Shown: piece by piece, positions 3,741-60,018 of the stretch
How the letters are laid out: the number at the start of each line of letters is the position of its first letter
Numbering within the stretch: the first letter of the stretch is position 1
Assembly (NCBI GenBank): GCA_018434355.1
Contig: JAHDPL010000012.1
Location: forward strand, 1 to 64,000
Length of the DNA stretch: 64,000 bases
Reading direction: 5' to 3'
DNA from: Sporomusaceae bacterium
Lineage (GTDB): Bacteria > Bacillota > Negativicutes > UBA1444
Notes under the pieces: model-generated
The model's database searches: none
The model's input: only the letters and a program-made list of their open reading frames with translations
What the model was told of the DNA's origin: nothing
Translations under genes and position numbers: made by a program

Positions 3741-3793
3741 TGTCATCGCCAATGCTAAAATGACCCCATATGGCAAATGAAAATTGACCCCCT
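3741..3793 (+). repeat. IS21-family left terminal inverted repeat
   Basis: It begins TGTCATCGCC and contains two direct copies of an AAAA(T)TGACCCC motif, the multiple transposase-binding repeats usual at IS21 ends. It pairs with 7277-7329. Confidence 0.85.
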
Positions 3794-3855
3794 CCAACAA
3801 AGGAGGGAAAACGATGAACCAAGGGAAACCCTCCACCCATGAAATCCTTCATGGG
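3790..3855 (+). promoter_or_regulatory. Two hairpins that mask the istA ribosome-binding sites
   Basis: CCCTCC (3790-3795) pairs perfectly with GGAGGG (3802-3807) across a 6-base loop. The right arm is the ribosome site of the ATG at 3814. A second perfect 8-bp stem, CCCATGAA (3836-3843) with TTCATGGG (3848-3855), covers part of the GGGGGAG before the in-frame ATG at 3868. Both possible starts are thus masked in the RNA. In other insertion sequences such folds limit transposase made from outside transcripts. The structure is read directly; its function is inferred. Confidence 0.55.
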
Positions 3856-5524: not shown

Positions 5525-7270
<1,746 letters not shown>

Positions 7271-30104: not shown

Positions 30105-31148
30105 ATGAATTCATTTACACGGATTTTGCTGTTAAAAATGGATCACATCGGCGATGCACTCTGGTCGTTCCCGGCAATCAGAGCGTTACGCACCGCTTTC
30201 CCGAAAGCTCGGATTGACATGTTGTGCACTTCATATTTGGCCGAAACATTTAGACGTCATCCCGACCTGACGGAAGTGATCGAATATGATCCCAAAGCTT
30301 CACTGGCAGAACGTATCCAAACGTTAAAAAAATTGCGACAACACCACTATGAGGTGTCGCTGGTACTTGGACCGGTTGATAAAGTAAGTCACTTAGCCTT
30401 CTTTTCTGGTGCAGCCGAACAATATAGTTATGCTTATGCGGGTAATATTCTTCGGTCTCTTACGAACAGGGTTTTTCTTACTCACCGTTATCCTCACCCA
30501 GCGGATGTGGCAAACAAATCGGGACTAGCGCTACCGCACGAAGTGCCTAGTATGATTGCGCTTGTTGAAAGAATCGGCGCTATTGCAGACCCTGAACCTT
30601 CACTTTTTTTTCCGTTATCTGCAGAGGAGATTGGCAATGCGGCTAACACGCTGAAAAACTATTATCCTGACAAAGCTGCATATGCAGCCATTCATCTTTG
30701 TGCAAAATCATTCGCCTATGGCTGGAATGAAGCCGCCTTTTTGCGGCTTGCGGCTACATTGCAAAGCACTTTCCCTGAAATCGGCTGGGTCGTCACTGCA
30801 GGACCAGCTGAAGAACCTTATCTTGCTTCGTATAGCCTTGCTTTATCCCCGTTGAACATTCCGATCATTTCTGGGATGCAATTAGCGGCAACAGCTGCCC
30901 TGCTGGCAAATTTGGAACTCTTAATTTCTTGGGATACGGGAGTCGTTCATCTGGCGGCAGCAGTTGGCACTCCTATCATCGATCTTTTTCCTGACAAAAA
31001 CTATGAATACTGCCTACAACGTTGGGGGCCCTGGAGTAACCAAGCAATTCCTCTGGCTCAAAAACACCCGCTCACTATGTCTGACGATTTTGCTGAAATT
31101 GTGTCAGCCGCAAAAATCCTGCTTGACGGGAGTGTTTCATCGCAGTGA
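30105..31148 (+). CDS. Glycosyltransferase family 9 (heptosyltransferase-like)
   Basis: GT9 enzymes add ADP-heptose (or a related sugar) to lipid A-Kdo core. The N-terminus ILLLKMDHIGDALWSFPAIRAL has the aspartate thought to act as base in WaaC/WaaF. The donor region has YAAIHLCAKSFAYGWNEAAF, WVVTAGPAEEPY and LISWDTGVVHLAAAVGTPIIDLF, the last being the family signature. At 347 residues it is complete. It is the first of three GT9 paralogues in this operon. ADP-heptose biosynthesis is encoded 9 kb away in the same window. Confidence 0.9.
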   Translation: MNSFTRILLLKMDHIGDALWSFPAIRALRTAFPKARIDMLCTSYLAETFRRHPDLTEVIEYDPKASLAERIQTLKKLRQHHYEVSLVLGPVDKVSHLAFFSGAAEQYSYAYAGNILRSLTNRVFLTHRYPHPADVANKSGLALPHEVPSMIALVERIGAIADPEPSLFFPLSAEEIGNAANTLKNYYPDKAAYAAIHLCAKSFAYGWNEAAFLRLAATLQSTFPEIGWVVTAGPAEEPYLASYSLALSPLNIPIISGMQLAATAALLANLELLISWDTGVVHLAAAVGTPIIDLFPDKNYEYCLQRWGPWSNQAIPLAQKHPLTMSDDFAEIVSAAKILLDGSVSSQ

Positions 31149-32212
31149 CTAACTTAAAAGATGTCTCACAAATCCATAGCATCCTGATTACAAAGCTAGA
31201 TCATCTGGGAGATATGATTTGGGCTACACCGGCTATTGCTGCCTTAAGATATAAATTCCCCCTAGCCAAAATTCATATCTTGTGCACGGTGGCCGCGGAG
31301 CCGATTCTTCGTCTAAATCCAGCAGTGACAAGCATTATCATCTATGACAAGGCCATTTTCCCTTCACAACAAAGTAAAAAGAAATGGCTTCATGATTTGA
31401 TTGGTACGCCAGACTTGGCATTATGTTTTGATACCCGGGATGAAGCAATATTGCTGGCCTATCTGTCAGGCGCCCCTATTCGCGGCGGCTATTATTATAA
31501 AGATCGTCTGTTTTCCACACTCAAGACATGGCTGCGGCTCACTCACAAATACGTTCATCCCACGATGGACAAAAATCCTCAACATGAAGTGCTGAATAAT
31601 CTCCGCTTGCTCGAGCGACTTGATTTATTAAAGATTGACGAATTACCGACCGAATTATTAGCTACCAATATTTATTTGTCGGCGGAGGAAAAAACTGCCG
31701 CGCAGCAAATAATAGAATCGCTCCAACTGACGGAGACTCCGCTAATTATGTATAATATACCTAATAAAACGATTAATCAGGGTTGGCCACGCTCTCATAT
31801 TATCGGCATAGTAAGAGAAATATTGTCAGGCATACCTGATACGCATGTTCTTTTGGTTGCCGGTCCTGGCGAAGAAGCTCTGCTTGATTCGCTGAAACCA
31901 GAGTTGCCAAAGGACTGTACGCCGCTTTCGGGATTACCGTTCCGAACATGGGCAGGGTTGTTTCCGTATTGCACCTTGTCATTGTCGCGTGATGCCGGCG
32001 CCGTTCATGTTTCAGCCGCTATGGGGGTCCCCGTCGTAAGCATATTTGAGGCGGAATGGCAACACATGGAACCTTGCTGGGAAGCCTGGAATGTCTTGCA
32101 TCGAAATGTTATCCGGCCTGCATCGCCTACTCCTGAAAACATTGATGCCCATATCGAGGATGTGTCACGCGCCGTAATTGATTTATGGAAGAAGGGTTCT
32201 GATGTCCATTAA
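31145..32212 (+). CDS. Glycosyltransferase family 9 (heptosyltransferase-like)
   Basis: The second GT9 paralogue starts at a GTG overlapping the previous stop (GTGA). SILITKLDHLGDMIWATPAIAAL carries the catalytic aspartate. The donor half has PLIMYNIPNKTINQGWP, VLLVAGPGEEALLDS and LSLSRDAGAVHVSAAMGVPVVSIFE, where DAGAVH replaces the common DTG..H. Length is 355 residues. Its coding sequence is clearly AT-richer than the GT2 gene that follows. Confidence 0.9.
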   Translation: MTNLKDVSQIHSILITKLDHLGDMIWATPAIAALRYKFPLAKIHILCTVAAEPILRLNPAVTSIIIYDKAIFPSQQSKKKWLHDLIGTPDLALCFDTRDEAILLAYLSGAPIRGGYYYKDRLFSTLKTWLRLTHKYVHPTMDKNPQHEVLNNLRLLERLDLLKIDELPTELLATNIYLSAEEKTAAQQIIESLQLTETPLIMYNIPNKTINQGWPRSHIIGIVREILSGIPDTHVLLVAGPGEEALLDSLKPELPKDCTPLSGLPFRTWAGLFPYCTLSLSRDAGAVHVSAAMGVPVVSIFEAEWQHMEPCWEAWNVLHRNVIRPASPTPENIDAHIEDVSRAVIDLWKKGSDVH

Positions 32213-33113
32213 ATTTAGTGTTCAAATCTGCAGCTACAATCGCTGGCATTTGTTGAAACGTTCGCTGGAAGCTCTTTTCGCGCAGGATTTTCCTAAAGAC
32301 GAGTATGAGATTGTCTTTGTCGATGACGGCAGTACGGATACCTCGCTTGCCATGGCACAGGAATTGGCCACGACGGCCCCCTGCCGGCTCAAAGTGCTGA
32401 CCAAGCCGAACGATGGTCTGTCGCGGGCCCGCAATCTCGGCATCCGCAACTGCGAAGGCGAGATCATCCTGTTCATGGATGACGATACGTTTGCCGACTC
32501 GGCGCTGCTAAAGGAACATCTGGTTGTGCATGAGCAGCATTCTAATGCGGTGGTCATGGGTTGGGTCAATCATATCGAGGAACTGGACCCGCAAGGCCCT
32601 CGCAAGTATGTGATGGCCGACTATTCACGTTCTTTCTTCTGGACCAGCAATGTTTCGGTCCGCAAAAAGTACATTGATCAGGTTGGCGGATTCGATGAAG
32701 ATTTTCGCGAATACGGCTGGGAAGACATGGAACTCGGCTATCGGTTAAAACAGTTGGGACTACAGCGGCACATTAATGAAAAAGCGATTGTATCGCATTT
32801 CAAACCGCCCAAGCAAAAGAAAGACCTGCCGGGAATGATTCGGCAGGCTGAATCGAGCGCGCGTAGCGCTCTCATCTACATCAAGAAACGTCCCGGACTG
32901 CGTTCGCGGATGGCTACCGGGATCACTTGGTTCCGCATGGGACTAGATTTGCTGTTTCGTCCGCTACGTCCTTTGTTTCAGAGCGGCATCGACAATGCTC
33001 CCGAAGGTCCACTGCGCGGCTGGACCTGGTGGTGCGCCCGTATGCTTTGCAGTTTCCACTTTTTTGATGTCGTCCGTACCGGAGACAGTACCAAGCCGGG
33101 GACTCTAAAATGA
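32202..33113 (+). CDS. Glycosyltransferase family 2
   Basis: This is a GT-A inverting transferase. SVQICSYNRWHLLKRSLEAL, EIVFVDDGSTDTSLAMAQEL and the DXD-like LFMDDDTFADSALLKEH give the nucleotide and metal site; GFDEDFREYGWEDMELGYRLKQ carries the base-like ED pair. ATG 32202 was chosen because GAAGGG precedes it; an in-frame ATG at 32178 would lie deeper in the previous gene. The gene overlaps the GT9 stop by 11 bases. From here on the operon becomes GC-rich. Confidence 0.9.
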   Translation: MSIKFSVQICSYNRWHLLKRSLEALFAQDFPKDEYEIVFVDDGSTDTSLAMAQELATTAPCRLKVLTKPNDGLSRARNLGIRNCEGEIILFMDDDTFADSALLKEHLVVHEQHSNAVVMGWVNHIEELDPQGPRKYVMADYSRSFFWTSNVSVRKKYIDQVGGFDEDFREYGWEDMELGYRLKQLGLQRHINEKAIVSHFKPPKQKKDLPGMIRQAESSARSALIYIKKRPGLRSRMATGITWFRMGLDLLFRPLRPLFQSGIDNAPEGPLRGWTWWCARMLCSFHFFDVVRTGDSTKPGTLK

Positions 33114-34000
33114 ATCCTTTGATCAGCGTCGTTATCCCCACGTTCAATCGCCGGGAAACCTTGGCTGTCGTGTTGCCGCTACTGGCGGGGCAAACTCTAC
33201 CGCAGGAACAGTACGAACTGCTGCTCTGCGATTCCGGCTCAACTGATGGCACGAATGAACTGGTAGCCGAGTTGGCGATTGCCAACCTGCGGCATATAAA
33301 ACCCGCGGAAAACCGGGGCCGCAGCGGCGCTCGCAACGCCGGCATTCGTGAGGCGACCGGCGAGTTCGTTTTGTTTACCGATGCCGATATCATTCCGTCG
33401 CCAAATTTATTGGCCGAGCATCTGCGGCTGCATCGCGCCCGCCCGCACTCTGCGGTGGTGGGGCTGGAAGTGCAGGTGGATACCGTCGCCGAATACGAAG
33501 CAGTTTGCGACAACCCCTATGACAAAGGCCGCCATATGCATGGGCGCAGCGACAAGGAAATGTCCTGGCTGTTTTTCCTCACCGGCAACGCCTCGGCGCC
33601 GCGCCAGGCTCTGCTGGACGTCGGCATGTTCGACGAAAACTTCACCGTGTATGGGCATGAAGATCTGGAGCTCGGCTATCGTTTGCAGAAAGCAGGCTAC
33701 CCGATCCTTTATAATGCGCAAGCGGTCAATTACCATTGGCACCCGGTGCCTTTCGCTGAACGCTGCGACAAGATGCGGCACTCAGGCGTAGCCACCAAAC
33801 GATTTTACACCAAACACCAAGACTGGACGATTTTGCTACGTCTTGGAGTGAACCCTTTTACGCTAGCGATACACCAGTTGGTTCATGGAGTTGAAAACTG
33901 GCGTAGCCAGCTGCGCTCCAAAGAAATGCAGGCCGGCTTGGGTCGTGAATTGACGCTGCAATATTATTATCTCTGCGGTTATCGGGGCATCGAGCCGTGA
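33110..34000 (+). CDS. Glycosyltransferase family 2
   Basis: A second GT-A transferase, closely similar in layout to the previous one and coupled to it by ATGA. ISVVIPTFNRRETLAVVLPL, LLLCDSGSTDGTNELV, LFTDADIIPSPNLLAEH and GMFDENFTVYGHEDLELGYRLQK are the key parts; CDSGS replaces the usual DDGS. A C-terminal 60-residue extension is basic and may touch the membrane. The pair probably arose by tandem duplication, though the two have diverged considerably. Confidence 0.9.
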   Translation: MNPLISVVIPTFNRRETLAVVLPLLAGQTLPQEQYELLLCDSGSTDGTNELVAELAIANLRHIKPAENRGRSGARNAGIREATGEFVLFTDADIIPSPNLLAEHLRLHRARPHSAVVGLEVQVDTVAEYEAVCDNPYDKGRHMHGRSDKEMSWLFFLTGNASAPRQALLDVGMFDENFTVYGHEDLELGYRLQKAGYPILYNAQAVNYHWHPVPFAERCDKMRHSGVATKRFYTKHQDWTILLRLGVNPFTLAIHQLVHGVENWRSQLRSKEMQAGLGRELTLQYYYLCGYRGIEP

Positions 34001-35097
34001 AAACTGCCGTAGATTTATCCTCGGTCCGCAATGTTTTGATCCTGCGCACCGACCACCTGGGCGATCTGTTGCTGTCGACCCCGTTGATTCGCACTTTGCG
34101 GACGGCCTTGCCGGGCCGCCGTTTTGTTTTGGTTGCCTCGCCGGCCAACCAGGAAGCTTTGCTTGGTTGGGACGGCATCGACGAGATCCGGCTGTTTGAC
34201 CCCAAATGGCCGTTGCGACAAAAATGGCAATTTGCCAGAACACTAGGGCAAGAACAATGGGACCTGTGCCTGACGCTGTCGCCACGCACGCCTGCTTATC
34301 TGCTGGGCTATTTATCCGGTGCGACGATCCGCGCCGGCATCATCTATTCGCGTCGCATATTGGCCCGCTTGCTCAGTTCGCTGTGGCTGACCCACCCCGT
34401 CATCGTATCTGTCGATGAAAAGTTGGCTGAAAACCAGCCGATTCCGCATGAAGTGATGCAGTTGGCAGGGGTTGCCGCTGCACTGGGACTGGCCGACGTC
34501 GAACCGGGACCGCTGGAGATTCCGCTCGGACAGTTGGAACTGAACTGGGCTGCAAACTGGTTGCAAGAACAGGACCCGAAGTTTTTGGCAAGCCAGCAGC
34601 CGACTCTCATTGGCATCCACGGAGCAGGCAAATGGCTGTCCCATGGCTGGACCAGCAACGATTTTCTGCAGTTGGTGCAAAAGATTTTGTCCGGCTGCAA
34701 AACTGCCGGACATGACGCAGTCAAAATACTGCTTACCTTCGGTCCCGGCGACCGGGAACTGGAATCCAGTGTTTTGCAGACGTTACAACAGCAACCAATA
34801 CCGAACCTGTTGCTGCCTGGTCTTTTGTCTGTACCGTGCTGGGCGGCGCTGACATCGCATTGCGACCTCGTCATTTCGCCGGATACCGGCTCGCTGCATC
34901 TGGCTGTCGCCGTAGGCTGTCCTGTCGTTGCCCTGTATGAAGCGGCTTCTTTTTTGCACTGCTCGACCCAGTGGGCTCCCTGGCAGACGCCGCACGCAAT
35001 CGTTCGCCGAACTACGCCAGCTGCGACTATCCCCGTCCTGGTCGCAGAAACAGTTCGATTGCTGGGAAAGAATGAGGCCGCTGATGAATCAAACTGA
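33997..35097 (+). CDS. Glycosyltransferase family 9 (heptosyltransferase-like)
   Basis: The third GT9 paralogue starts with GTG in a GTGA overlap. NVLILRTDHLGDLLLSTPLIRTL contains the catalytic aspartate. LIGIHGAGKWLSHGWTSNDF, ILLTFGPGDRELESS and LVISPDTGSLHLAVAVGCPVVALYE form the ADP-heptose site. At 366 residues it is complete and GC-rich, unlike the first two paralogues. The three may add successive heptoses, or one may use another sugar. Confidence 0.9.
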   Translation: MKTAVDLSSVRNVLILRTDHLGDLLLSTPLIRTLRTALPGRRFVLVASPANQEALLGWDGIDEIRLFDPKWPLRQKWQFARTLGQEQWDLCLTLSPRTPAYLLGYLSGATIRAGIIYSRRILARLLSSLWLTHPVIVSVDEKLAENQPIPHEVMQLAGVAAALGLADVEPGPLEIPLGQLELNWAANWLQEQDPKFLASQQPTLIGIHGAGKWLSHGWTSNDFLQLVQKILSGCKTAGHDAVKILLTFGPGDRELESSVLQTLQQQPIPNLLLPGLLSVPCWAALTSHCDLVISPDTGSLHLAVAVGCPVVALYEAASFLHCSTQWAPWQTPHAIVRRTTPAATIPVLVAETVRLLGKNEAADESN

Positions 35098-36265
35098 GAA
35101 ATTGGGGCCTGTCCCCAATTTATTTGCTCGTTTTACGCAACATGTTGAATCGCCGGTTCCAGCGTATTCCGGACGAGGCGAGGTCGCATTGGCGGTGCTG
35201 GTCCTGCCGCTGACCTTCCTCTACAAAGTTTTGGACTGCCTGTATGGAAAAAATGCGATTCCCGGCCAAGCTTGGCCTTATATCCCGCTGTTGTCGGTTT
35301 TTACCGCGCTCGCGTTTAGCAGCGTGTTTTGGCTGGCAACTCGGCCCGGCGCGAACTGGATTGTCAGGATGCTTAAGCCAGATAAACGACAGTGGCTGAT
35401 TTTTCTGCCGGTTGGTTTCAGTGGAAGTTTTCTAGTTGCCATATGGGGAATGGGGCTGCCAGAGTTTTCGACGCATGTTCTGTCCATGCGCACTGCCCCC
35501 TGGGCGGATTTCTCCTATCCTGTGTTCGCGATTCTCGCGGCCATGCTGCTCAGCGGCGGTTTCTGGACCGGACTCCATTTTGCAGGCAATTTGGCGGCAA
35601 TACGCAAGAACTCGGATCACTTGATCCCTTTTGGCTGGCGTGATTTAGGCTGTGTTTTGCCGGCTGTGTTGCCCTTTCTTATTTTACAGGAACAAATTCC
35701 ACTTTTATGGTGCTTTACTACACCTGTGGCGGTCATCGTGATGGTGTTTGCCAGCGGACTGGGGCGGGAACACTTCTGTTTTTCGTTTGTTCCCCGCTCC
35801 TGGCGCGAGACCGGCTTTATCCTGCTGCTGATGGTCAGCGGACTGTTGTTGTTTCTGCTGGTCAGTCTGGGGGCCGGCACGATTTCGTATTCTGGCGGGC
35901 TGTGGCGCTCCAACTGGACGGTCATCTATGACTCCGTATTCACTTGGCTGTTGATTGTCGGGATTTCTGAGGAAATCATATTTCGCTGCGGAATCCTTAC
36001 CCTGATTGGCGGTTTATTAGCGCGAAAACAACGGATGAGCTGGTGGAAACAGCACCCGCGGCTGGGCGCAGTGCTCTTGACTTCTTTGTTATTTGCGCTG
36101 GCTCATTTGTTCCGCGGCGCCACGCTTATCTTCCTGGCTCTCTTAGCCAGTCTGCTCTATGGTCTCGCTTTTATCGCCGGCAAGAGCCTGTTTGGCCCGG
36201 TGCTGTTGCACGGCTTGCTGAATGTGCTGGTCCTGATGAATTTTCATCTGTCCGACTTCAAATAA
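35084..36265 (+). CDS. CPBP-family intramembrane protease-like protein
   Basis: The polytopic protein carries the CAAX-protease/bacteriocin-processing (CPBP, Abi) domain in its C-terminal third. The glutamate motif is VGISEEIIFRCGIL (EExxxR), followed by LLFALAHLFRG and LFGPVLLHGLLNVLV with the histidines. The start ATG 35084 has GAGG 6 bases upstream and overlaps the GT9 stop. Residues about 4-13 (TEKLGPVPNL) are encoded by a copy of the dispersed palindrome (35099-35121). In Gram-positives and others such proteins process small peptides; here the role is unknown. XrtA-like exosortase proteins were considered but the EExxxR motif favours CPBP. Confidence 0.85.
   Translation: MNQTEKLGPVPNLFARFTQHVESPVPAYSGRGEVALAVLVLPLTFLYKVLDCLYGKNAIPGQAWPYIPLLSVFTALAFSSVFWLATRPGANWIVRMLKPDKRQWLIFLPVGFSGSFLVAIWGMGLPEFSTHVLSMRTAPWADFSYPVFAILAAMLLSGGFWTGLHFAGNLAAIRKNSDHLIPFGWRDLGCVLPAVLPFLILQEQIPLLWCFTTPVAVIVMVFASGLGREHFCFSFVPRSWRETGFILLLMVSGLLLFLLVSLGAGTISYSGGLWRSNWTVIYDSVFTWLLIVGISEEIIFRCGILTLIGGLLARKQRMSWWKQHPRLGAVLLTSLLFALAHLFRGATLIFLALLASLLYGLAFIAGKSLFGPVLLHGLLNVLVLMNFHLSDFK
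35099..35121. repeat. Dispersed 23-bp palindrome, copy 1 (inside a coding start)
   Basis: AAATTGGGG, five bases CCTGT, then CCCCAATTT: a perfect 9-bp inverted repeat. It lies in the reading frame of the CPBP gene, 15 bases after its ATG. Four more copies occur at 36264, 36834, 42185 and 42216. Confidence 0.85.
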
Positions 36266-36286
36266 ATTGGGGCCTGTCCCCAATTT
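36264..36286. repeat. Dispersed 23-bp palindrome, copy 2
   Basis: Identical to copy 1, including the CCTGT centre. It begins inside the TAA stop of the CPBP gene and ends 3 bases before the GGGAGG site of the PAP2 gene, so it fills the gap between the two genes. Confidence 0.85.
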
Positions 36287-36301
36287 CCGGGAGGAATTGT
36301 T

Positions 36302-36835
36302 TTGCCGACAAACTTGGCAACGTTAACAACCAAAGCTGTCAGCGTCTATTGTTTTACACTGCTGGCCGCGTTATTCGTTCTTTTTCCCGATAATTCCCGA
36401 CCGGATCAATTTGCCCATTTTCTCAGCGACCAGGTCAACGATGGCTTTCAGATTTTCGCCCATTTGCTGATGTTCTTTACCGGCTGGCGCTTGCGCAGCT
36501 GGCGACCGGTCCTGTATGATATCTCAGTGGCACTGTTCGTTACCAGTGTCGTTCAGCTATCCAAGCGGTTCCTGATCGCCGACATCGCGATCCGTCCGTC
36601 CGGCGGCTACGAAGGTTTCCCCAGCGGCCATGCCTCGGCCACCTTCTCACTGGCGTTTGTCCTGTCGCTGTATTATCCCCGCTTGTGGTGGCTCTGGTAC
36701 TCTGTCGCCGGCTTGGTGACCTGGTCGCGGGTGCAGACCAATGCCCACACAGAGCTGCAAATCGCAGCCGGAATGCTGTTCGGTTCCATAGTGGCATATA
36801 CTGTCGCGCTGCTGATGCAAAGACAAAAAAAATAA
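36302..36835 (+). CDS. PAP2-superfamily membrane phosphatase
   Basis: This is an integral membrane lipid-phosphatase-like protein. The PAP2 catalytic parts are RFLIADIAIRPSG (weak first motif), EGFPSGHASATFSLAFV (PSGH, second motif) and WSRVQTNAHTELQIAAG (SR-x5-H-x3, third motif). Five to six membrane helices are likely in 177 residues. The start is TTG, with GGGAGG 7 bases upstream. Possible roles are recycling undecaprenyl pyrophosphate or removing phosphate from lipid A, both plausible in this locus. It is the last gene of the plus-strand operon, and its stop lies inside a copy of the palindrome. Confidence 0.88.
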   Translation: MPTNLATLTTKAVSVYCFTLLAALFVLFPDNSRPDQFAHFLSDQVNDGFQIFAHLLMFFTGWRLRSWRPVLYDISVALFVTSVVQLSKRFLIADIAIRPSGGYEGFPSGHASATFSLAFVLSLYYPRLWWLWYSVAGLVTWSRVQTNAHTELQIAAGMLFGSIVAYTVALLMQRQKK

Positions 36836-36856
36836 ATTGGGGACAGTCCCCAATTT
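36834..36856. repeat. Dispersed 23-bp palindrome, copy 3, between convergent operons
   Basis: AAATTGGGG, ACAGT, CCCCAATTT. It starts in the TAA of the PAP2 gene and ends in the stop of the minus-strand gene 36855-37976, so the whole gap between the convergent operons is this repeat. In RNA it would form a stem from either side, but T-runs are short, so terminator action is uncertain. Confidence 0.85.
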
Positions 36857-37976
36857 ATCGCAGGTCGAATTCCTGAACCAGGAATTCGGCTATTTTTTTT
36901 GCCCCGCCTGGCGGACCCATCCGCTCGCGGCCGATTGCGCCGCGCTGCTGCCGTTCTTCCGGGTGAGCCAACAGCCACGATACCTCGCGGGCAACCCCTT
37001 CGGGAAAGTCGCTGATATAGGCGGCAGCGCCGCCAAGCAGCCGTTCCTGGTCGATCATCCGCGACGGTGTCGTTTGCGCGCCGGCGCCGACAAAACTGAT
37101 CACCGGTCGGCCCATACCGGCCGCCTGCTCGTTGGCGGTCCCGGCCATGCCGATTACCAGTGTGGAGTCGTGCAAACTACGTTCGAACAGGTCTTTACCC
37201 ATCCGGATTGCTTTATCGCCTTTGCGCAGCATATTCCCTTCGGTCAGGCGCCAGCCTCTCTCCGCCACGGATGCTGCCATTTTCTCAATATCAATCACTG
37301 GCGAAAGCGCACAAAGATACTCTACCGGTTCGGCAATCTGCTCGATTACCGCGACGATTCGCTGAAAGTTTTGATCTGCTTCGTCGCGACTGCCGGGGAA
37401 CAGACCGATGATCGGCGGATTGACCGCTTTTTCCGGCGCTGGTTCGCCGATGCCATCCATGATCGGATTGCCAAGGAACAGTGCGTCGATTCCTTTCGTA
37501 CGCAGCCGTTCGGCGGTATAAGCATCCCGTGTCAGGACTTTGGCAGCGAAACGACGAATCACCCACTCTTCGATTGCCGAGTGCGGATTCATATGGTCTG
37601 ATTTGGCCAGTGCCAAAAAAACCGATTTGCGCCCCAGACCAAAGTAAGCATGAATCAGCAGAAACACATCGCCGACAACAAAAGCATGGTCGATCTGCGA
37701 ACGTTGCCGGGCCAAAAAGCCAAGATAGCGGAAATAATCCCTGGCATAGGGGATATCCTTGAGGAACAGGCGAAATTCCTGGCTGCCAAACCCCTGCCCC
37801 GGCGGGAAAGATCCTTCCCACACCGTCTCAAAGCCGTGTCGCTGGAATGCATCGCCGTTGGATACCATCGGGATGGCCGTGATCTGATGCTGCGGCGCAA
37901 GCTGGCGCAATTCACAGGCGATCAGCGCGCCGGTGCGGTCTTCACCGTAACCGTTGGTCAGAAACGAAATGTTCAC
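36855..37976 (-). CDS. Lipid-A-disaccharide synthase-related protein (TIGR03492-like)
   Basis: This GT-B protein is related to LpxB but is not the true LpxB, which is at 61752. It reads FLTNGYGEDRTGALIACEL in place of the LpxB SGEASGD loop. Later parts IIGLFPGSRDEADQNFQR and VIGMAGTANEQAAGMGRPVISFVG match the LpxB donor-side layout. From memory it fits the family annotated as lipid-A-disaccharide synthase-related, found in cyanobacteria and Negativicutes; the reaction is not established to my knowledge. It overlaps the neighbouring LpxB-like gene by 35 bases. A role in glycolipid assembly near the membrane is the best inference. Confidence 0.8.
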   Translation of the reverse strand: MNISFLTNGYGEDRTGALIACELRQLAPQHQITAIPMVSNGDAFQRHGFETVWEGSFPPGQGFGSQEFRLFLKDIPYARDYFRYLGFLARQRSQIDHAFVVGDVFLLIHAYFGLGRKSVFLALAKSDHMNPHSAIEEWVIRRFAAKVLTRDAYTAERLRTKGIDALFLGNPIMDGIGEPAPEKAVNPPIIGLFPGSRDEADQNFQRIVAVIEQIAEPVEYLCALSPVIDIEKMAASVAERGWRLTEGNMLRKGDKAIRMGKDLFERSLHDSTLVIGMAGTANEQAAGMGRPVISFVGAGAQTTPSRMIDQERLLGGAAAYISDFPEGVAREVSWLLAHPEERQQRGAIGRERMGPPGGAKKIAEFLVQEFDLR

Positions 37977-39165
37977 GAATAGCCTCCGCCATGATTCGCG
38001 CTGCGCCCCGCTCGCGCGTTAATTCGAGTAGTTCTGCCTTGAGTTTTTCCAGTCGCGGCTTGTCCTGCCACAGCGCCGAGGCCGCTGCAGCCACCTCGGA
38101 CTGACTCAGCACACCGCGCATTTCCGGCGCCAGCATCCGCCCCGCCATCCGGTTGACCATCGACATATAGGGAACTCGCGGGCTCATCCAAGCGATAATC
38201 CACTTCTTGATGTGGTTGAACGGGAAAAATCGCGGATATAACAGGCCGAGCAGCCCTTCGAACGGGATGCTTTCGATCGAGTTAAGCGGCATCAGCATGA
38301 TGAAAGGTGTCCCCAGCGCCGCGCATTGCAGGTTGTTGGTCCCCGGCAATACGATCGCCAGATCGGCGGCGGCGATGGCAGCGTGGCTATGCGTAAATAT
38401 GACTAAGATCCGGCCAGTCGGACCGATGCGCAAGATTTCGCCGTCCCGGCTTGCGTCTGGCGGCATTAACTGGCGCTGGTCCAGCACCGTCAGCACCATT
38501 TCTCGATCAATGAACGGTGAAATCGGCATCAATACAGTGGATTCTGCATATTCTGCCAGCAGAAGGTCAGCTATATCCAGCATGAACTCCAGACTCATTG
38601 CCACATAAGAAGGCCTGCTGCCAGCCATGAGCGTAATCACCGGCTGAGTATCTGTTTTTAGCGCCAGTCGCTGACGAATCTCAGCCTGCGTCCCATCCAC
38701 CGTCACACTATCCAGCGCCAACGTCGGCACGACGACGATTTGCTCAATAGCAGCGCCTTTGCGCACCGCCCGTTGCTGCTCAGCCTGCGTCGGCACAAAA
38801 ATCCGCAAGAAATCCTGCGGCGAATAAACACGCGGCATGTAGGCCATCGCTGCACAATTTAGCAGCCGCGACAGGCCTTTGGCATACAGTGCGTCGCCAC
38901 CAAGAAACAGCACCAGGTTTTGCTGCTGCCTCAGCAGCTTGCGCTGACTCCACAGCTCGCGAATCAGTGGAAACACGCCGACCACCCGGTCCACCGGCAA
39001 CTGCTCGCCAAAATCCTGCTCACGGCCACTGGTGAACCAGTCCGGGATGAGGGCCACCGTAATGCGCAATTGCGGCAGGATTTGCCGCAACTCTGTCACC
39101 ACCGGCGCCACCCAGCCCGACATCTCGCCCGGTGAATTGGCCAGTATATACAAATTTGCCTGCAT
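37942..39165 (-). CDS. Second LpxB-like GT-B protein of unknown substrate
   Basis: The protein has 407 residues and starts YILANSPGEMSGWVAPVVTEL, again an LpxB-type loop. VLFLGGDALYAKGLSRLLN, ITLMAGSRPSYVAMSLEFML and ADLAIVLPGTNNLQCAALGTPFIMLMPL correspond to LpxB donor-site regions. A hydrophobic/basic stretch (FFPFNHIKKWIIAWMSPRV) may contact the membrane. It is not a duplicate of the next gene, since their N-terminal halves differ, but both lie together and overlap, so they may act on one substrate in sequence or as a complex. Upstream lie GT2 and heptose genes. Confidence 0.78.
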   Translation of the reverse strand: MQANLYILANSPGEMSGWVAPVVTELRQILPQLRITVALIPDWFTSGREQDFGEQLPVDRVVGVFPLIRELWSQRKLLRQQQNLVLFLGGDALYAKGLSRLLNCAAMAYMPRVYSPQDFLRIFVPTQAEQQRAVRKGAAIEQIVVVPTLALDSVTVDGTQAEIRQRLALKTDTQPVITLMAGSRPSYVAMSLEFMLDIADLLLAEYAESTVLMPISPFIDREMVLTVLDQRQLMPPDASRDGEILRIGPTGRILVIFTHSHAAIAAADLAIVLPGTNNLQCAALGTPFIMLMPLNSIESIPFEGLLGLLYPRFFPFNHIKKWIIAWMSPRVPYMSMVNRMAGRMLAPEMRGVLSQSEVAAAASALWQDKPRLEKLKAELLELTRERGAARIMAEAIREHFVSDQRLR

Positions 39166-39168
39166 ACG

Positions 39169-40095
39169 CTATCCTTCCGTGGCTATCCCTACGTCAGCCA
39201 GTCCTTGCCGCAGCGCGGTCGCATAGAGGTGAATCAGTAAGACTTTGCGCAACAGCGGATACAAAAATTCTTTGTTTTGCTTTGCTCTGGCCACCCGCTC
39301 GGGTGTCGCCCACTCGGTCCAGCCAAGTTTCTGGAACCGGCGGTCCCACTCCAGGCTTCCCCAATTGATCAGCTGCTTGACTTCCGGCAAGGGATACTTT
39401 TCATAAAACAAAGCGCCGTTGCTGCCGCATTCGCGTCGTTTCTTCATTTCACTTTCCAGCGAGGGAGTACCATCGGTATGGTGCAACACATACGCCTTGC
39501 GGTTGCGCACATTGCCCAGACCGGCCTGACGCAGTCGTATGCCCAGCTCTGTGTCCTCATAGCCGTAGGCTTTGCCGAACCGGGCGTCAAACCCGCCCAC
39601 CCGCAAAAAGTCTTCCCGTGGACAAGACACATTGACGCTGACAAACGGTACGCCAAAAAAGTCGAAGAACGCCTGCAACTTTATTTCCCGGGAAATAAGC
39701 GGCGGGTTGTCTACTGCCTCCCTGCCGCTGACATAGATCGCCGGACCATCGACAAAAACCGGCTTGCCAGCTTGCCGGTGGCTTTTCACATGCTCTGAAA
39801 TGAAACTGGCGGAAGCAAATGCATCACTATCGAGGAATATGACAAATTCGCCGCTGGCCTTGGCAACCCCCAGGTTGCGGGCGGGACCCGGCCCTTGGTG
39901 GCCTGCTGCAATACAGCGCAAATTATAGCGGGCCGGCCAGTCCTTGACCATTTCCACGCTGCCGTCTGTCGATCCATCGTCTACGACGATGACCTCATAC
40001 TGCTTGCTGGGGTAGTCCTGTGCATCCAGGCAGCGTAGGCAAGTCGCCAGCAGGTCTTTGCGGTTGTAGGTGGCGATGACGACACTGGCGTCCAA
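39169..40095 (-). CDS. Glycosyltransferase family 2
   Basis: The GT-A transferase shows ASVVIATYNRKDLLATCLRCL, YEVIVVDDGSTDGSVEMVKDW, ARNLGVAKASGEFVIFLDSDAFASASFI (the DXD-like acid pair) and GFDARFGKAYGYEDTELGIRLRQAG. The length is 308 residues. It is 17 bp downstream of gmhB and 3 bp upstream of the LpxB-like gene, so the operon joins heptose synthesis and these transferases. Donor and acceptor are unknown. Confidence 0.9.
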   Translation of the reverse strand: MDASVVIATYNRKDLLATCLRCLDAQDYPSKQYEVIVVDDGSTDGSVEMVKDWPARYNLRCIAAGHQGPGPARNLGVAKASGEFVIFLDSDAFASASFISEHVKSHRQAGKPVFVDGPAIYVSGREAVDNPPLISREIKLQAFFDFFGVPFVSVNVSCPREDFLRVGGFDARFGKAYGYEDTELGIRLRQAGLGNVRNRKAYVLHHTDGTPSLESEMKKRRECGSNGALFYEKYPLPEVKQLINWGSLEWDRRFQKLGWTEWATPERVARAKQNKEFLYPLLRKVLLIHLYATALRQGLADVGIATEG

Positions 40096-40112: not shown

Positions 40113-40613
40113 TTAAAATATTCCATTCTTCCGCACAAAGTCTAGCAGGTTTGCTTCATCAAACAGATATCCCTTGACCCCGGCGGCCGTCGCCGCCTGT
40201 ACGTCGAATTCCTTGTCGCCGATCAAGATGCAGTCTGCCGGGTCTGCCTGCCACTCGGCCAAGCCGCGCAAAATCATCCCCGGTTGAGGTTTGCGACAGT
40301 CACAGGCCATGGCGTATTCCGGTTTTACCGCCTGCGGGTAGTGCGGGCAATAGAAGAAGCTGTCAATGTGGGCGCCTTGTTTGGTTAGTTCTTCATTCAT
40401 CCACTGGTGCAGCGCCTGAACATCGGATTCCTGGTAGTAACCGCGGGCCACGCCGCTCTGGTTGGTGACCACGACCACCCGCCAGCCACGCTCATTGAAA
40501 CTGCGGATGGTTTCGACGGCGCCGGCCATCCAGACAAAGTCTTCCTTGCTCCACAGATAACCGATATCGACGTTGAGCACGCCGTCCCGGTCAAAAAAGA
40601 CGACTCGGTTCAC
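40113..40613 (-). CDS. gmhB: D-glycero-beta-D-manno-heptose 1,7-bisphosphate 7-phosphatase
   Basis: GmhB is a HAD phosphatase that removes the 7-phosphate during ADP-heptose synthesis. The nucleophile motif is FFDRDGVLN (residues 6-14). [11 protein letters not shown], the zinc-binding [25 protein letters not shown] with its cysteines, and [17 protein letters not shown] follow. Length is 166 residues. The start overlaps the gmhA stop by ATGA. The zinc loop supports GmhB rather than a histidinol-phosphatase. Confidence 0.95.
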
Positions 40614-41161
40614 TCTTCAATCCTCTGGCACACCAGATGTTCGACCAACAGGTGCGCTTCCTGAATCCGCGCCGTAACATCCGAGGGGATGCAGATGCAG
40701 ATGTCGCACAAGCTTTTCATTTTACCGCCGCTGCGACCGGTCAGGCCGACGGTGACAGCGCCGCGTTCATTGGCTTTTTCCAGCGCCTTCATAATATTGG
40801 CGCTGTTGCCGGAGGTCGAGATGCCTACCACCAGGTCGCCGGGATGGACCAAAGCTTCCACTTGGCGGGAGAAGATCGCGTCAAACCCATAATCGTTGCC
40901 GAGCGCCGTCAAAATCGAAGTGTCCGTCGTCATTGCCACTGCCGCCATCGCTTGCCGTTCCTTCTGAAACCGGCCGACCAGTTCGGCGGCGAAATGCTGG
41001 CAATCGCAAGCGCTGCCGCCATTTCCCATAAGGTATATCGTACGGCCGGAAGCGATCGCACTGCGACAGGCTTCGGCAAAACGCGAGATATCGTCCAGAC
41101 ATTCGGCTTGCATCGCTTCAATGGTCTGGTTGTGTTCGGCAATCAGTTTATTATAATCCAT
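40610..41161 (-). CDS. gmhA: Sedoheptulose-7-phosphate isomerase
   Basis: GmhA turns sedoheptulose-7-phosphate into D-glycero-D-manno-heptose-7-phosphate, the first committed step to ADP-heptose. The SIS fold is shown by [25 protein letters not shown] and [18 protein letters not shown]. The metal-site residues (His in CQHFAAEL, Glu, and His in [12 protein letters not shown]) are present. Length is 183 residues. It is coupled with gmhB. Confidence 0.95.
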
Positions 41162-41171
41162 CGTCGACTCC

Positions 41172-42167
41172 TTATACCGGCACTTTCAGCGAGCCGCTGC
41201 GCAGCGAGCGTTCGGCCGCCTCCAGAATTTTCACGACGTCCAGTCCTGCATGCCCGTCGGCAATCGGCGGTTTGCCGGTCCGAATCGCCTCGACTAGTTG
41301 TTTCACTTCATTGCGCAGGGCATCACCCGGCGGAACAAACGGCGACAGGACATCGCCCAGATGATAGCCTGTCTTGCCTTCGGCGCTGCAAGTCACGCAG
41401 CGGTCAAAGATACGCAGCTTTTCCGAGGCTTCCAGATCGTTGTAATATACGCTCTTTTGCGTGCCGACCAGTACTCCATGCCGCATCTTGACCGGCGACA
41501 GCCAGTTGACGTTCACTTTGGCGACAAATGAATTGTCAAAGAACATATGCAGCTGGGCCATGCTCTCTGGATGCCCGGGCACGTGGCTAGTGCCGACGGC
41601 CAGGACTTCCTTCGGCATCCGGCCGATCACATGGTAGAACAGCGATACATCATGCACCGCCAAATCCCATAGCACGTTGTAATCGTTACGGACCGCGCCG
41701 AGGTTGAGCCGGACCGAATCCCAGTACAGCAGTTCACCCAGATCGCCGCGCTGGATTATATTGCGCAGGTATTGGGCTTCGTTGGTATAGACAAGCACAT
41801 GGTCGGTCGCCAGCAGCAAGCCTTTTTTCGCCGCCAGCGCGATCAATTCTTCGGCGTGGGCGACATTTGCCGTCATCGGTTTTTCCACCAGCACATGCTT
41901 ACCGGCTTCCAGCGCTGCCTTGGCCAGCGGATAGTGGCTGTCCACCGGCGTAGCAACCGCCACCAGGTCGACTTTAGGATCGTTCAGGATGTCCAGATAG
42001 TCTGTTGTTGTCTGCACATCATGAAACGTCTGCTTGAGAAACTCCAGCCGGGCTGCGCTGAGATCGCACATCCAGCGGAGTTTCGTCTCCGTATTGGAAA
42101 AGAATACGTTCAGCAGGTTGGGACCCCAACCGCCGCAGCCGATCACCGCTGCCTGTATTTTTTTCAT
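41172..42167 (-). CDS. Gfo/Idh/MocA-family oxidoreductase
   Basis: This NAD(P)-dependent enzyme oxidises or reduces a sugar ring carbon. The N-terminus [20 protein letters not shown] is the Rossmann loop, [31 protein letters not shown] is the family signature including EKP, and [19 protein letters not shown] carries the conserved DH pair. In glycan loci such proteins pair with a DegT aminotransferase, as in WbpB/WbpE or WlbA/WlbC, to make 3-amino sugars. Here the aminotransferase is directly upstream. ATG 42167 was chosen; a GTG at 42182 is alternative and lies against the palindrome repeat. Confidence 0.88.
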
Positions 42168-42184
42168 TTTCTCTCGCCTCACTT

Positions 42185-42205
42185 AATTGGGGACAGTCCC
42201 CAATT
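42185..42205. repeat. Dispersed palindrome, copy 4 (tandem pair)
   Basis: AATTGGGG, ACAGT, CCCCAATT, with the extra outer T on one side only. It lies between the aminotransferase and oxidoreductase genes, 31 bases from copy 5. Confidence 0.85.
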
Positions 42206-42215
42206 TAATTTGCTT

Positions 42216-42236
42216 AATTGGGGCCTGTCCCCAATT
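42216..42236. repeat. Dispersed palindrome, copy 5 (tandem pair)
   Basis: AATTGGGG, CCTGT, CCCCAATT. Copies 4 and 5 represent the two centre variants side by side and make up nearly all of the 81-bp gap between two coupled genes. Confidence 0.85.
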
Positions 42237-42248
42237 ATCGTCGCCAAT

Positions 42249-43358
42249 TTATTTCACGCAAAATTCGCGGACTGATTCAGTGACCTGGTCGATCTGTTCT
42301 TCTGTCATTTCCGGGAACATCGGCAACGTCAGGCAGCGCTTGGCCACCGTTTCGCTGACCGGGAAGTCGCCAGCCTTGTAACCGAGATGGGCATAGGCTT
42401 TCTGCAGATGGACCGGCAGCGGATAATGCAGCGCGGTTTCCACGCCGCGGCTGGCCAGGTGCTTTTGCAATTCATCGCGGCGCGGATGCTGAACCACAAA
42501 CAGATACCAGTTGCTTTCGCACCATTGTTTGATCTCCGGCAGCACAAGCCCCGGCAGACCTGCCAGCGACAACTTGTAGTTCTTTGCAACCTGATGGCGC
42601 TGCGCCGTCCAAGCCGGCAAATGTTTCAGTTTTACGCCGAGAATCGCGCCCTGGATGCCGTCCATCCGGTAGTTGAATCCCAGTTCGTCGTAGTAGTATC
42701 GCTCGCCCTGCGAATGGTTGCGCAGTCGGCGCAAGTGGTCGGCCATATCGGCGTCATCGGTGCAAATACCGCCGGCTTCGCCAAACGCGCCGAGGTTTTT
42801 GCCGGGATAAAAGCTGAAGCAGGAGGACACGCCAAACGTACCGGCATTTCTGCCCTTGTAGGTCGAACCATGCGCCTGGGCTGCGTCTTCGACCAGCGCC
42901 AGGTTGTGGCGCTTGCAGACATCGATGATCTCGTCCATATCGCAGGTGTGCCCGTAGAGGTGCACTGGCAATACCGCCTTGGTTTTCGGCGTAATCGCCG
43001 CTTCCAGCTTGCGGGCGTCCATGCAGTAGGTGTGGGGGTCGATGTCGACGAATACCGGCTTTGCGCCGATATAGGATATCGCCCAGGTGGTGGCTACGAA
43101 AGTGTAGGAAACGGTAATGACCTCATCGCCCGCTTTCACGCCGGCGGCGATCAGCGCCAGGTGCAGGGCGTCAGTGCCACTACCGCAGCCGATGCAGTAT
43201 CTCGTCCCGACATAGCGGGCGAAGTCTTCTTCAAACCGACTCACGGCCGGGCCAAGGATATAGGCGGCCGAGGACAACACCTTATCGATTTCGGGGGCCA
43301 GCTCTTCCTTGATGTTTTGGTACTGCAGGGGCAGATCTTGTAATGGGACCTTTTTCAC
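42249..43358 (-). CDS. DegT/DnrJ/EryC1/StrS-family sugar aminotransferase
   Basis: This is a PLP enzyme that aminates a keto sugar nucleotide. VKKVPLQDLPLQYQNIKEEL is the start, at GTG 43358, with GGAGG 7 bases upstream (an in-frame codon at 43415 would overlap hldD). CIGCGSGTDALHLALIAAG binds phosphate, EDAAQAHGSTYKG contains the ring-stacking aspartate region, and SCFSFYPGKNLGAFGEAG holds the PLP lysine. NYRMDGIQGAIL and ALHYPLPVH are typical of the WbpE-like group. It probably works with the oxidoreductase after it on a UDP- or dTDP-3-keto sugar. No acetyltransferase is seen nearby. Confidence 0.92.
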   Translation of the reverse strand: MKKVPLQDLPLQYQNIKEELAPEIDKVLSSAAYILGPAVSRFEEDFARYVGTRYCIGCGSGTDALHLALIAAGVKAGDEVITVSYTFVATTWAISYIGAKPVFVDIDPHTYCMDARKLEAAITPKTKAVLPVHLYGHTCDMDEIIDVCKRHNLALVEDAAQAHGSTYKGRNAGTFGVSSCFSFYPGKNLGAFGEAGGICTDDADMADHLRRLRNHSQGERYYYDELGFNYRMDGIQGAILGVKLKHLPAWTAQRHQVAKNYKLSLAGLPGLVLPEIKQWCESNWYLFVVQHPRRDELQKHLASRGVETALHYPLPVHLQKAYAHLGYKAGDFPVSETVAKRCLTLPMFPEMTEEQIDQVTESVREFCVK

Positions 43359-43375
43359 GCTAATTCCTCCAAACT

Positions 43376-44341
43376 CTATCTGAAATAGCCGGCGGTCTGT
43401 TCCAGACAATCGCAATACTCGGCGATTGCCGCCGTCAGCGGGGTGAACTCAACATCGCAGCCACAGGCCCTGAGCTGAGTCAGGTCAGCCTGGGTGAAGC
43501 TCTGGTATTTTCCGACCAGGCTGGCCGGGAACGGCACATACTCGATCCGGCCGGCGCCCAACCGGGCAATCAGCGCCCTGGCAACATCATTGAACGAATG
43601 CGCCGATCCTGTGCCGCAATTGAATACGCCGCCCTTGTGCGGGTTTTGCCAGAAATACAGGTGGACATTGATCAGGTCTTTCACATAGATGAAATCACGC
43701 TGCTGTTCGCCGTCGCCATAACCGCCGGTCCCGGCAAACAAGCGGGCTACGCCGTCTTTTTTCAGTTGATGGTACAGCTGCCAAGCGATCGAGGCCATGC
43801 GGCCTTTGTGATTTTCCTGCGGTCCAAACACGTTGAAATAACGAAGTCCGACGACCTGGCTGCCGATCGGCGGTTTCAACCGCCGGACATAGTTGTCAAA
43901 CAAAAATTTCGAATAGGCATAAACATTTAGAGGGTATTCGCAGGCCGGCTCCTCGCGGAAGCCGTTTTCGCCGTTGCCATAAACTGAGGCGGACGAGGAA
44001 TAATGAAACGGGATGCCGCGTTCCAGGCAATGATGCAGCAAAATCTTGCTATATTCGTAGTTGGTCTCCAGCATATAGGAACCATCGGACTCCATCGTAT
44101 CGGAACAGGCGCCGATATGGAAAATGCCGTCGATCGCACCCAGTCCCTGGCCGCCTTGTTCCACCCGTGACAAAAAGCGCGTCTTATCCTGATAGTCCAG
44201 GAACTTCAGTCCGCGCAGATTTTCCATCTTGGCGCTATTCTTCAAATGATCGACGATCAGGATGTCCTGCCGTCCTGCATCATTGAAGCTTTTTACCAAG
44301 TTGCTGCCGATAAAGCCGGCGCCGCCTGTAATGACAATCAT
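43376..44341 (-). CDS. hldD: ADP-L-glycero-D-manno-heptose 6-epimerase
   Basis: HldD flips C6 of ADP-D,D-heptose to give the L,D form used by heptosyltransferases. [23 protein letters not shown] is the NADP loop. HIGACSDTMESDGSYMLETNYEYSK, YSSSASVYG, the catalytic YAYSKFLFDNYVR and LRYFNVFGPQENHKGRMAS are all HldD marks. ATG 44341 overlaps the rfaE1 stop by ATGA; a GTG 9 bases further upstream is less likely. Length is 321 residues. Confidence 0.95.
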   Translation of the reverse strand: MIVITGGAGFIGSNLVKSFNDAGRQDILIVDHLKNSAKMENLRGLKFLDYQDKTRFLSRVEQGGQGLGAIDGIFHIGACSDTMESDGSYMLETNYEYSKILLHHCLERGIPFHYSSSASVYGNGENGFREEPACEYPLNVYAYSKFLFDNYVRRLKPPIGSQVVGLRYFNVFGPQENHKGRMASIAWQLYHQLKKDGVARLFAGTGGYGDGEQQRDFIYVKDLINVHLYFWQNPHKGGVFNCGTGSAHSFNDVARALIARLGAGRIEYVPFPASLVGKYQSFTQADLTQLRACGCDVEFTPLTAAIAEYCDCLEQTAGYFR

Positions 44342-45327
44342 TGTTCCCACTCCTCCGGATGTTGTATCTCAGCCAGCGCTGTCGCCAGTTCGGCGGCGCT
44401 GATCGCATAGGTTCCCAGCTTTGCCACGACGACACCTGCCGCCAGATTCGCCAGATGGGCAGCGGTGGAGGGTTTCAGTCCAGCTGCTAGCGCAGCCCCC
44501 ATCACAGCGGCGACTGTATCGCCGGCGCCAGATACATCAAAGACCTCGCGCGCATAGGTCGGGATATGCGTTACCGAATCTTCCGCCAGCAAGCTGAGTC
44601 CCTTTTCCGAACGTGTCACCATCAATGCGCCAAAGGAAAATCGCTGGCGAATCGATTTTCCCAGTGCCTCGATCGACAGATTATTGTTGGCGACCGGCTT
44701 GCGGCAGGCTTCACCTAGCTCTTTCACATTCGGTGTCACCAGATAGGCCCCTTGGTATTTTTTCCACTGTGATCCTTTGGGATCAACCACCAATGGAACG
44801 TTCGCATTGCGGCAGGACAAAATCAGCGCTCGGCATATCGCCGGCGAGCATACGCCCTTGGCATAGTCGGATAAGATCACCGCATCAATGCCAGACTCCA
44901 GTTTCTGCCGGATGGCTTCGCTCAGTTGTTTTTCTTGCGTCCTTGATGCTACGCCGGTTTCTTCAAAATCCAGCCGCAACATCTGCTGATGCCCGCCAAT
45001 GACCCTCACTTTGGTCGTAGTCGGTCGTGTTGTTTTCACCAACCCCGCCGGGTCGATGCCCAGCGCGACAAATTTCCGGTCTAAAATCAGGCGGTTCTCG
45101 TCATTGCCGCTCAAGCCGCAGAGCGATACCCGGCAACCAAGCCGCGCCAGATTGTGCGCCACGTTGGCCGCGCCGCCCAGTGTATTTTTGCAGTCTTTTA
45201 CCAGAGCAACCGGCACCGGTCCCTCTGGCGAAATTCGACTCACTTCAGCAAAATAATAGCGGTCCAGCATCACGTCACCCACGACGAGCACGCGCGCTGC
45301 CGCAATTCTTTCAAGCCATGGATGCAC
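44338..45327 (-). CDS. rfaE1: D-glycero-beta-D-manno-heptose-7-phosphate kinase
   Basis: This is the PfkB-type kinase half of HldE as a separate protein; it makes the 1,7-bisphosphate. VLVVGDVMLDRYYFAEVSRISPEGPVPV and LGGAANVAHNLARLGC bind the heptose phosphate, and FDVSGAGDTVAAVMGAAL is the PfkB signature with the catalytic aspartate. At 329 residues it ends where the adenylyltransferase domain would begin in a fused HldE. The start is GTG overlapping the rfaE2 stop by one base. Confidence 0.95.
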   Translation of the reverse strand: MHPWLERIAAARVLVVGDVMLDRYYFAEVSRISPEGPVPVALVKDCKNTLGGAANVAHNLARLGCRVSLCGLSGNDENRLILDRKFVALGIDPAGLVKTTRPTTTKVRVIGGHQQMLRLDFEETGVASRTQEKQLSEAIRQKLESGIDAVILSDYAKGVCSPAICRALILSCRNANVPLVVDPKGSQWKKYQGAYLVTPNVKELGEACRKPVANNNLSIEALGKSIRQRFSFGALMVTRSEKGLSLLAEDSVTHIPTYAREVFDVSGAGDTVAAVMGAALAAGLKPSTAAHLANLAAGVVVAKLGTYAISAAELATALAEIQHPEEWEQ

Positions 45328-45797
45328 TATGAATTGCCCTTCCCTTCATTCTGCAAACGCCGAATAACATTGGTCGTCGAGCGCCCTTCCACCATCGGAA
45401 TCAGCACGGTCTTGCCGCCATAACTGCCGACGATCTTCGATTCCGGTAAAGTCTCCAGCGAGTAATCGCCGCCCTTGACATAGATATCCGGTTTTAATTG
45501 GCGAACCAGTTCTTCAGCCGTTGCTTCGCCAAAGACGACGACATGATCGACCGCCCTTAGCGCGGCCAATACCTCCGCCCGGTCTTCCGACGGGTTTACC
45601 GGCCTGCCTTCGCCTTTGAGTTTACGCACCGATTCATCACTGTTCAGTCCGACGATCAGCACCTCGCCTAACGCTTTGGCGGCGTTGAGATATCGCACAT
45701 GCCCCGCATGCAGTATGTCGAAGCAGCCGTTGGTAAAGACGACTTTTTGACCGCTAGTTTTATAATTGAGCAGTTTTTCTAATAAATCGTGCAGCAT
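45327..45797 (-). CDS. rfaE2: D-glycero-beta-D-manno-heptose 1-phosphate adenylyltransferase
   Basis: This is the nucleotidyltransferase half of HldE as a separate protein; it makes ADP-D-glycero-heptose. VVFTNGCFDILHAGHVRYLNAAK contains the HxGH motif of the cytidylyltransferase fold. LIVGLNSDESVRKLKGEGRPVNP and VYVKGGDYSLETLPE-like DIYVKGGDYSLETLPESKIV follow, with GRSTTNVIRRL (ISTT-like) at the end. It precedes the kinase gene, the reverse of the fused domain order. It is 1 bp downstream of lptD. Confidence 0.95.
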   Translation of the reverse strand: MLHDLLEKLLNYKTSGQKVVFTNGCFDILHAGHVRYLNAAKALGEVLIVGLNSDESVRKLKGEGRPVNPSEDRAEVLAALRAVDHVVVFGEATAEELVRQLKPDIYVKGGDYSLETLPESKIVGSYGGKTVLIPMVEGRSTTNVIRRLQNEGKGNS

Positions 45798-58693: not shown

Positions 58694-58697
58694 CCTG

Positions 58698-60002: not shown

Positions 60003-60018
60003 AGGCAGTCTCCTCAAT

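Follow-up and report, generated by a model that had tools for sequence, protein, structure and literature searches.

Two adjacent genes, ORF2 and ORF1, lie beside the heptose genes of the 64,000-nucleotide stretch of Sporomusaceae DNA analysed here (the window), and in bacteria of many phyla the same pair stands where the Kdo attachment genes would otherwise be, as seen in its co-occurrence, its synteny and its mutual exclusion with WaaA. Kdo, which normally begins the core of lipopolysaccharide (LPS), is attached by the Kdo transferase WaaA. Judged by their sequences, both products are clear relatives of LpxB and neither is LpxB, and the family of ORF2 has no name. The pair is real, coupled and previously undescribed in the literature searched. 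We favor, with moderate confidence, the view that ORF1 and ORF2 are lipid A-level GT-B transferases that start a Kdo-independent core, and that the window genome carries an accessory, horizontally exchanged variant of them. The features of the window that bear on this view are as follows.

36855-37976, minus strand: ORF1, a TIGR03492 GT-B glycosyltransferase (lipid-A-disaccharide-synthase-related) of 373 aa, assigned from its TIGR03492 score, AlphaFold2 GT-B fold and motifs
37942-39165, minus strand: ORF2, of an unnamed LpxB-related GT-B family, 407 aa, assigned from hhalign to LpxB, Foldseek and motif comparison
37942-37976, minus strand: 35-base overlap of the ORF2 3' end with the GTG start of ORF1, GGAGG lying just upstream of the GTG
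39169-40095, minus strand: GT2 glycosyltransferase (PF00535), third member of the GT2-ORF2-ORF1 cassette
40113-41161, minus strand: gmhB and gmhA, ADP-heptose synthesis (NCBIfam)
41172-43415, minus strand: Gfo/Idh/MocA oxidoreductase and DegT/DnrJ-type sugar aminotransferase of the same operon (NCBIfam, Pfam)
43376-45797, minus strand: hldD, the kinase part of hldE and the nucleotidyltransferase part of hldE (NCBIfam; cytidylyltransferase Pfam)
36831-36859, minus strand: terminator-like hairpin at the operon end (13 pairs, then a T run)
30105-36835, plus strand: convergent cluster of three GT9, two GT2, CAAX protease-like and PAP2 genes (Pfam)
56162-62894, minus strand: complete Kdo/lipid A operon of kdsD, kdsA, kdsB, waaA, msbA and lpxB (NCBIfam, PF04413)

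Both genes of the pair are intact, with ORF2 starting at ATG and ORF1 at GTG, and the ribosome-binding site of ORF1 (GGAGG, 6 bases before the GTG) is located within the end of ORF2. They are the final two genes of the minus-strand heptose run. Upstream of them, the GT2 gene, gmhB, gmhA, the oxidoreductase and aminotransferase genes, hldD and the hldE halves are separated by intergenic gaps of at most 66 bases, a spacing from which the pair is probably co-transcribed with the GT2 and heptose genes. The true lpxB (61752-62894; TIGR00215, 314.9 bits) is intact and separate from the pair. The original prediction had described two adjacent, diverged LpxB relatives that overlap by 35 bases, occur in addition to the true lpxB at 61752 and neighbor ADP-heptose synthesis and GT2 genes. 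Its coordinates, overlap and relatedness were all confirmed, as was the same-strand run.

Other parts of the window also concern the cell surface. The region at 7346-27679 carries genes for dTDP-rhamnose and GDP-sugar synthesis, an ABC-2 exporter with its ATPase, an initiating sugar transferase and an O-antigen ligase-type protein, and by gene content is a predicted O-antigen-type locus. At 3784-6827, genes for two transposases, one of the rve/Mu type and one of the Mutator family, adjoin this polysaccharide cluster. The palindrome TTGGGG(A/C)C(A/T)GTCCCCAA occurs in five copies (at 35102, 36267, 36837, 42187 and 42218), all intergenic or at gene ends within 35-42 kb, where zero would be expected by chance; no copy was found in the 18 kb following the window.

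ORF1 scored 257.3 bits against TIGR03492 over residues 5-369, above the curated cut-off of 219.2, and is a member of this family, which has no assigned function; it matched neither TIGR00215 (E<=0.001) nor any Pfam family. ORF2 matched PF02684 weakly (49 bits, single-sequence search) and TIGR00215 at 42.2 bits over residues 151-291 only, below the equivalog cut-off of 190.25. Membership of ORF2 in LpxB was ruled out by this score and by the residue at the E281 position, which is not Glu. Neither protein matched the WaaA N-terminal domain PF04413. In profile comparisons with hhalign, each protein was closer to LpxB (E=7e-43 for ORF2, E=3e-25 for ORF1) than to the other (E=2e-21). The AlphaFold2 models were confident (pLDDT 91.5 for ORF2 and 93.9 for ORF1, the latter with a GT-B fold). 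Foldseek searches of the PDB returned E. coli LpxB entries as the top three matches of ORF2, while the ORF1 model resembled GT-B enzymes generally. We know of no activity for either family, and searches of the published literature on TIGR03492, its product name and LpxB-like paralogues returned nothing on the pair.

Comparison of active-site residues with LpxB, which the original prediction had proposed, gave a divided answer by alignment. E. coli LpxB has an essential Arg, R201, in its PGSR loop and a ribose-binding Glu, E281 (PMC5785501). The Arg is kept: R184 of ORF2 is the counterpart of R201 and is invariant in 23 ORF2 sequences, and the GSR of the nucleotide loop is likewise invariant in ORF2, with PGSR in most rows. 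The Glu, by contrast, is replaced by Gln280 in the window; in the same alignment of 23 sequences, Gln also occurs in the homologues at loci L097 and L113, and Glu in the other 20 rows. As for D98 of E. coli LpxB, alignment alone gives no secure counterpart in ORF2 and places Gly there in the window's own LpxB. ORF2 thus shares with LpxB (TIGR00215, PF02684, CAZy GT19) the GT-B fold, the GSR loop, a conserved N-terminal GE and an LPN-like motif, but differs from it in falling far under the equivalog cut-off, in the window's Gln for the ribose-binding Glu, in occurring besides a true lpxB and in having conserved motifs of its own (NSPGE, PCxFASGRE, GGD and an IPLEGLxG insert). In ORF1, the motifs PGSR (194-197) and GTANEQ are conserved.

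The pair is rare in the window's class. Among 120 genomes of that class, the ORF2 family (E below 1e-50) was present only in the window genome and one congener, and ORF1 was found in the window genome alone; in the congener, whose genome is 73% complete, the contig stops within ORF2. With these counts (2/120 for ORF2 and 1/120 for ORF1), the pair is not a feature of Negativicutes. In the phylum, ORF2 relatives occurred in 24/149 genomes after weak lpxB-type matches were excluded, and TIGR03492 in 47/398. The two families travel together, in that all 21 TIGR03492 genomes of the 149-genome sample also had ORF2 (p=1e-22), and they often lie on one contig, flanking msbA. In most genomes of the phylum sample with visible neighbors, ORF2 is positioned between lpxB and msbA. 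The usual gene order across many Bacillota is lpxI-lpxB-ORF2-msbA-ORF1-lptB-lptG. A longer version runs lpxC, the fabZ/lpxA region (assigned by position only), lpxI, lpxB, ORF2, msbA, often a nucleotidyltransferase with LptC, then ORF1, lptA, lptB, lptG, DUF3084 and SLH. The heptose genes that accompany the pair in the window operon are not its usual conserved partners, which are lpxB, msbA and the lpt genes, and GT2 in the window sub-type. Three genomes, G420 (a single contig of 3.8 Mb), G480 and G305, have two or three TIGR03492 matches each, and functions may have split between the copies.

A scan of genome contigs with ORF1, limited to the best 80 of 509 relatives, extended this distribution to Armatimonadota, Aerophobota, WOR-3, Stahlbacteria, Brevinematales, Atribacterota, Cyanobacteriota, Margulisbacteria and others. 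Among these best 80 of 509, the ORF2 family was present in 20/29 genomes, including both cyanobacterial ones, and undetected in 9/29, which were mostly WOR-3-type, Brevinematales and small MAGs and included Stahlbacteria; lpxB was found in 8/9 of the genomes with ORF1 and no detectable ORF2. ORF2 adjoins lpxB or msbA in Aerophobetes, and in a Gloeobacterales genome it is followed by an LpxD-family gene. In three candidate-phylum loci (L146, L163 and L174), a gmhB-like gene (88-95 bits) adjoins ORF1. Plasmid searches with both proteins gave no match.

The TIGR03492 family reaches many phyla and is coupled both to ORF2 and to the absence of Kdo genes. Among 50 genomes with TIGR03492 or ORF2, PF04413 (WaaA) occurred only in the window genome (G000) and in G311, and the same two genomes were the only ones with KdsA over its cut-off. 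G311 is 81% complete and is likely a mixed bin, because it carries lpxB twice and its contigs differ in GC (0.376 vs 0.436). In a sample of 398 genomes, the 87 with lpxB divided into 44 with TIGR03492 only, 33 with WaaA only, 2 with both and 8 with neither, for a Fisher p=4e-14 that assumes independent genomes, which related genomes are not; many of the genomes sampled are incomplete MAGs. Because the p-value treats non-independent genomes as independent, a swap within a single genus, g24, is the stronger point. There, a single contig of G283 bears msbA-ORF1-ORF2, and ORF1 and ORF2 are present in G020 too, neither genome having WaaA; G355 instead carries waaA-lpxL-msbA-kdsD-kdsA-kdsB and gave no match to TIGR03492. 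A WaaA search of 38 genomes with TIGR03492 loci (from the best 80 of 509) found it only in G504 and G512, both of which carry the window-type cassette. Complete kds/waaA sets have been reported in Halanaerobiales (Antunes et al. 2016, PMC5007114), in contrast to two Halanaerobiales-labelled MAGs (G539 and G540) in which ORF1/ORF2 loci are present and WaaA is absent, a discrepancy that could stem from gaps in the MAGs or from variation among Halanaerobiales.

The window belongs to a distinct sub-type. In trees of both proteins, it forms a clade with L097 (from the armatimonadete G504) and L113 (from the acidobacterium G512), with support of 100/99 for ORF2 and 100/95 for ORF1. Among the best 80 of 509 ORF1 relatives, these three loci have the order GT2-ORF2-ORF1 in common, and all three genomes combine WaaA with Gln for the ribose-binding Glu of LpxB in ORF2. 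The congener (G168) has WaaA as well, and there too GT2 adjoins ORF2 (L031/L200). Relatives of the window's neighbors recur beside the pair, namely PAP2, GT2 and GT9 in L097/L196 and GT2 and GT9 in L113/L198. In L196, an MsbA-like ABC exporter lies after ORF1, and L195-L196 of G504 form a single run of PAP2, GT2, GT39 (PMT_2), GT9, GT2, ORF2, ORF1 and the exporter, which by its gene content looks like a self-contained operon for glycolipid assembly and export. Recent horizontal gain in the window was rejected on composition, because the GC and GC3 of the pair match those of the operon. The best reading of the window copy is a diverged accessory version that has been horizontally exchanged. Since the window genome has both WaaA and KdsA, its pair is classed as a variant and not as a replacement for Kdo.

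A related question is whether the pair stands in for LpxK. No lpxK was found in the window or beside its waaA (58698-60074, 57950-58693), and it is also missing from the congener's waaA contig (L206). In the relatives compared, lpxK lies beside waaA, as a separate gene in L203, L205, L207, L208 and L209 and fused to waaA in L204. Replacement of LpxK by the pair in the window's genus is nonetheless unsupported as a rule, since lpxK and the pair occur together in G504 and G512. In L120, from a genome without WaaA, an lpxK-like gene is directly 3' of ORF1; therefore the phosphate and ORF1 may coexist.

What might the pair do? In E. coli, the lipid A disaccharide is formed by LpxB, which condenses UDP-diacylglucosamine with lipid X; LpxK then adds the 4'-phosphate and WaaA the Kdo, after which MsbA flips the product. 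The families, fold, co-occurrence, synteny, WaaA exclusion, cassette clade and Glu-to-Gln change described above are observations, and what follows on acceptor, donor, linkage and role in the window genome is our proposal. In most carriers, the pair would act after LpxB and before the flippase MsbA, on the cytoplasmic face of the inner membrane, adding one or two sugars at the sites of the LpxK phosphate and the WaaA Kdo. The stage proposed for the pair is that of WaaA/KdtA (PF04413, CAZy GT30), the addition of the first sugar to lipid A, and the pair holds the equivalent msbA-lptB place in the operon; unlike WaaA, it has no detectable PF04413 match, and most of its carriers lack Kdo genes. 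Cyanobacteria offer a chemical parallel. Their genomes are reported to stop at LpxA, LpxC, LpxD and LpxB (PMC3087551), and in Synechococcus lipid A the phosphate and Kdo are reported to be replaced by galacturonic acid at C4' and glucose at C6' (PMC4515613). Such a lipid A calls for two transferases at the step that ORF2 and ORF1 occupy, and the pair may supply them. The two cyanobacterial genomes with the pair have no WaaA and in this resemble the Kdo-less LPS described (PMC4515613, PMC3087551), whereas the window genome also has Kdo genes.

In the window genome, the Kdo route would be kept alongside the separate GT2-ORF2-ORF1 sub-type with its presumably altered nucleotide pocket. The most likely role of the pair in that setting is to add an accessory lipid A sugar or to make a second lipid A-type glycolipid, and the GT2 and heptose enzymes may extend its product. 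The original suggestion of an undescribed glycolipid or a lipid A modification is partly supported, since it fits the homologues between lpxB/msbA and lptB/lptG that stand in for Kdo genes. A broader proposal, which we put forward tentatively, is that ORF1 and ORF2 are the missing starters of the Kdo-less LPS core in cyanobacteria, in Limnochordia and in a number of candidate phyla, where their sugars would replace the LpxK 4'-phosphate and the WaaA Kdo. This old module would also have been passed as a GT2-linked cassette to Kdo-making bacteria, the Glu-to-Gln change marking a new donor or acceptor.

An alternative is that the product of the pair is an outer-membrane glycolipid distinct from lipid A, such as one linked to diacylglycerol or polyprenyl, that happens to be required in Kdo-less diderms. 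The control genome of Deinobacterium chartae has a TIGR03492 match and no lpxB match, and lipid A may therefore not be the sole acceptor of ORF1. The L196 cassette, with its own exporter after the pair and GT9, GT39, GT2 and PAP2 before it, and the hydrophobic IPLEGL-type insert of ORF2, which suggests membrane contact, point the same way. We nevertheless consider a separate glycolipid unlikely, given the tight linkage of the pair to lpxB, lpxI, msbA and lptB/lptG in many genomes and the exclusion of WaaA among genomes that have lpxB.

It is rather improbable that the two window enzymes are conventional transferases of the inner or outer core that use the heptose of a normal Kdo-LPS as acceptor, with the likeness to LpxB reflecting a shared fold only. 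Its operon with gmhA, gmhB, hldD and hldE, the GT9 heptosyltransferase-family genes that face it, the Kdo and O-antigen-type genes of the window and the gmhB-like genes next to ORF1 in the three candidate-phylum loci would agree with such a role, but the homologues occur mostly in Kdo-less genomes, most of the operons seen are without heptose genes, and the closest solved structure to ORF2 is LpxB and not a core transferase. That the WaaA exclusion reflects shared ancestry alone, with genes of unrelated roles tracking lineages, is very improbable even though positives are confined to a limited number of families (22 for TIGR03492 and 12 for WaaA), as the swap occurs within one genus and the same exclusion is seen in genomes of Cyanobacteria, Aerophobetes, WOR-3, Brevinematales and Armatimonadota (best 80 of 509).

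The literature searched assigns no enzymes to the attachment of sugars to lipid A in Kdo-less bacteria, and ORF1 and ORF2 are candidate genes for this step. If the preferred reading of the pair as starters of a Kdo-independent core is correct, Kdo would be one of two alternative ways to start LPS, and the second would be widespread among diderm phyla. The chief interest lies in the general module; the window holds its diverged accessory form, a variant showing that the module can be gained by a cell with Kdo genes.
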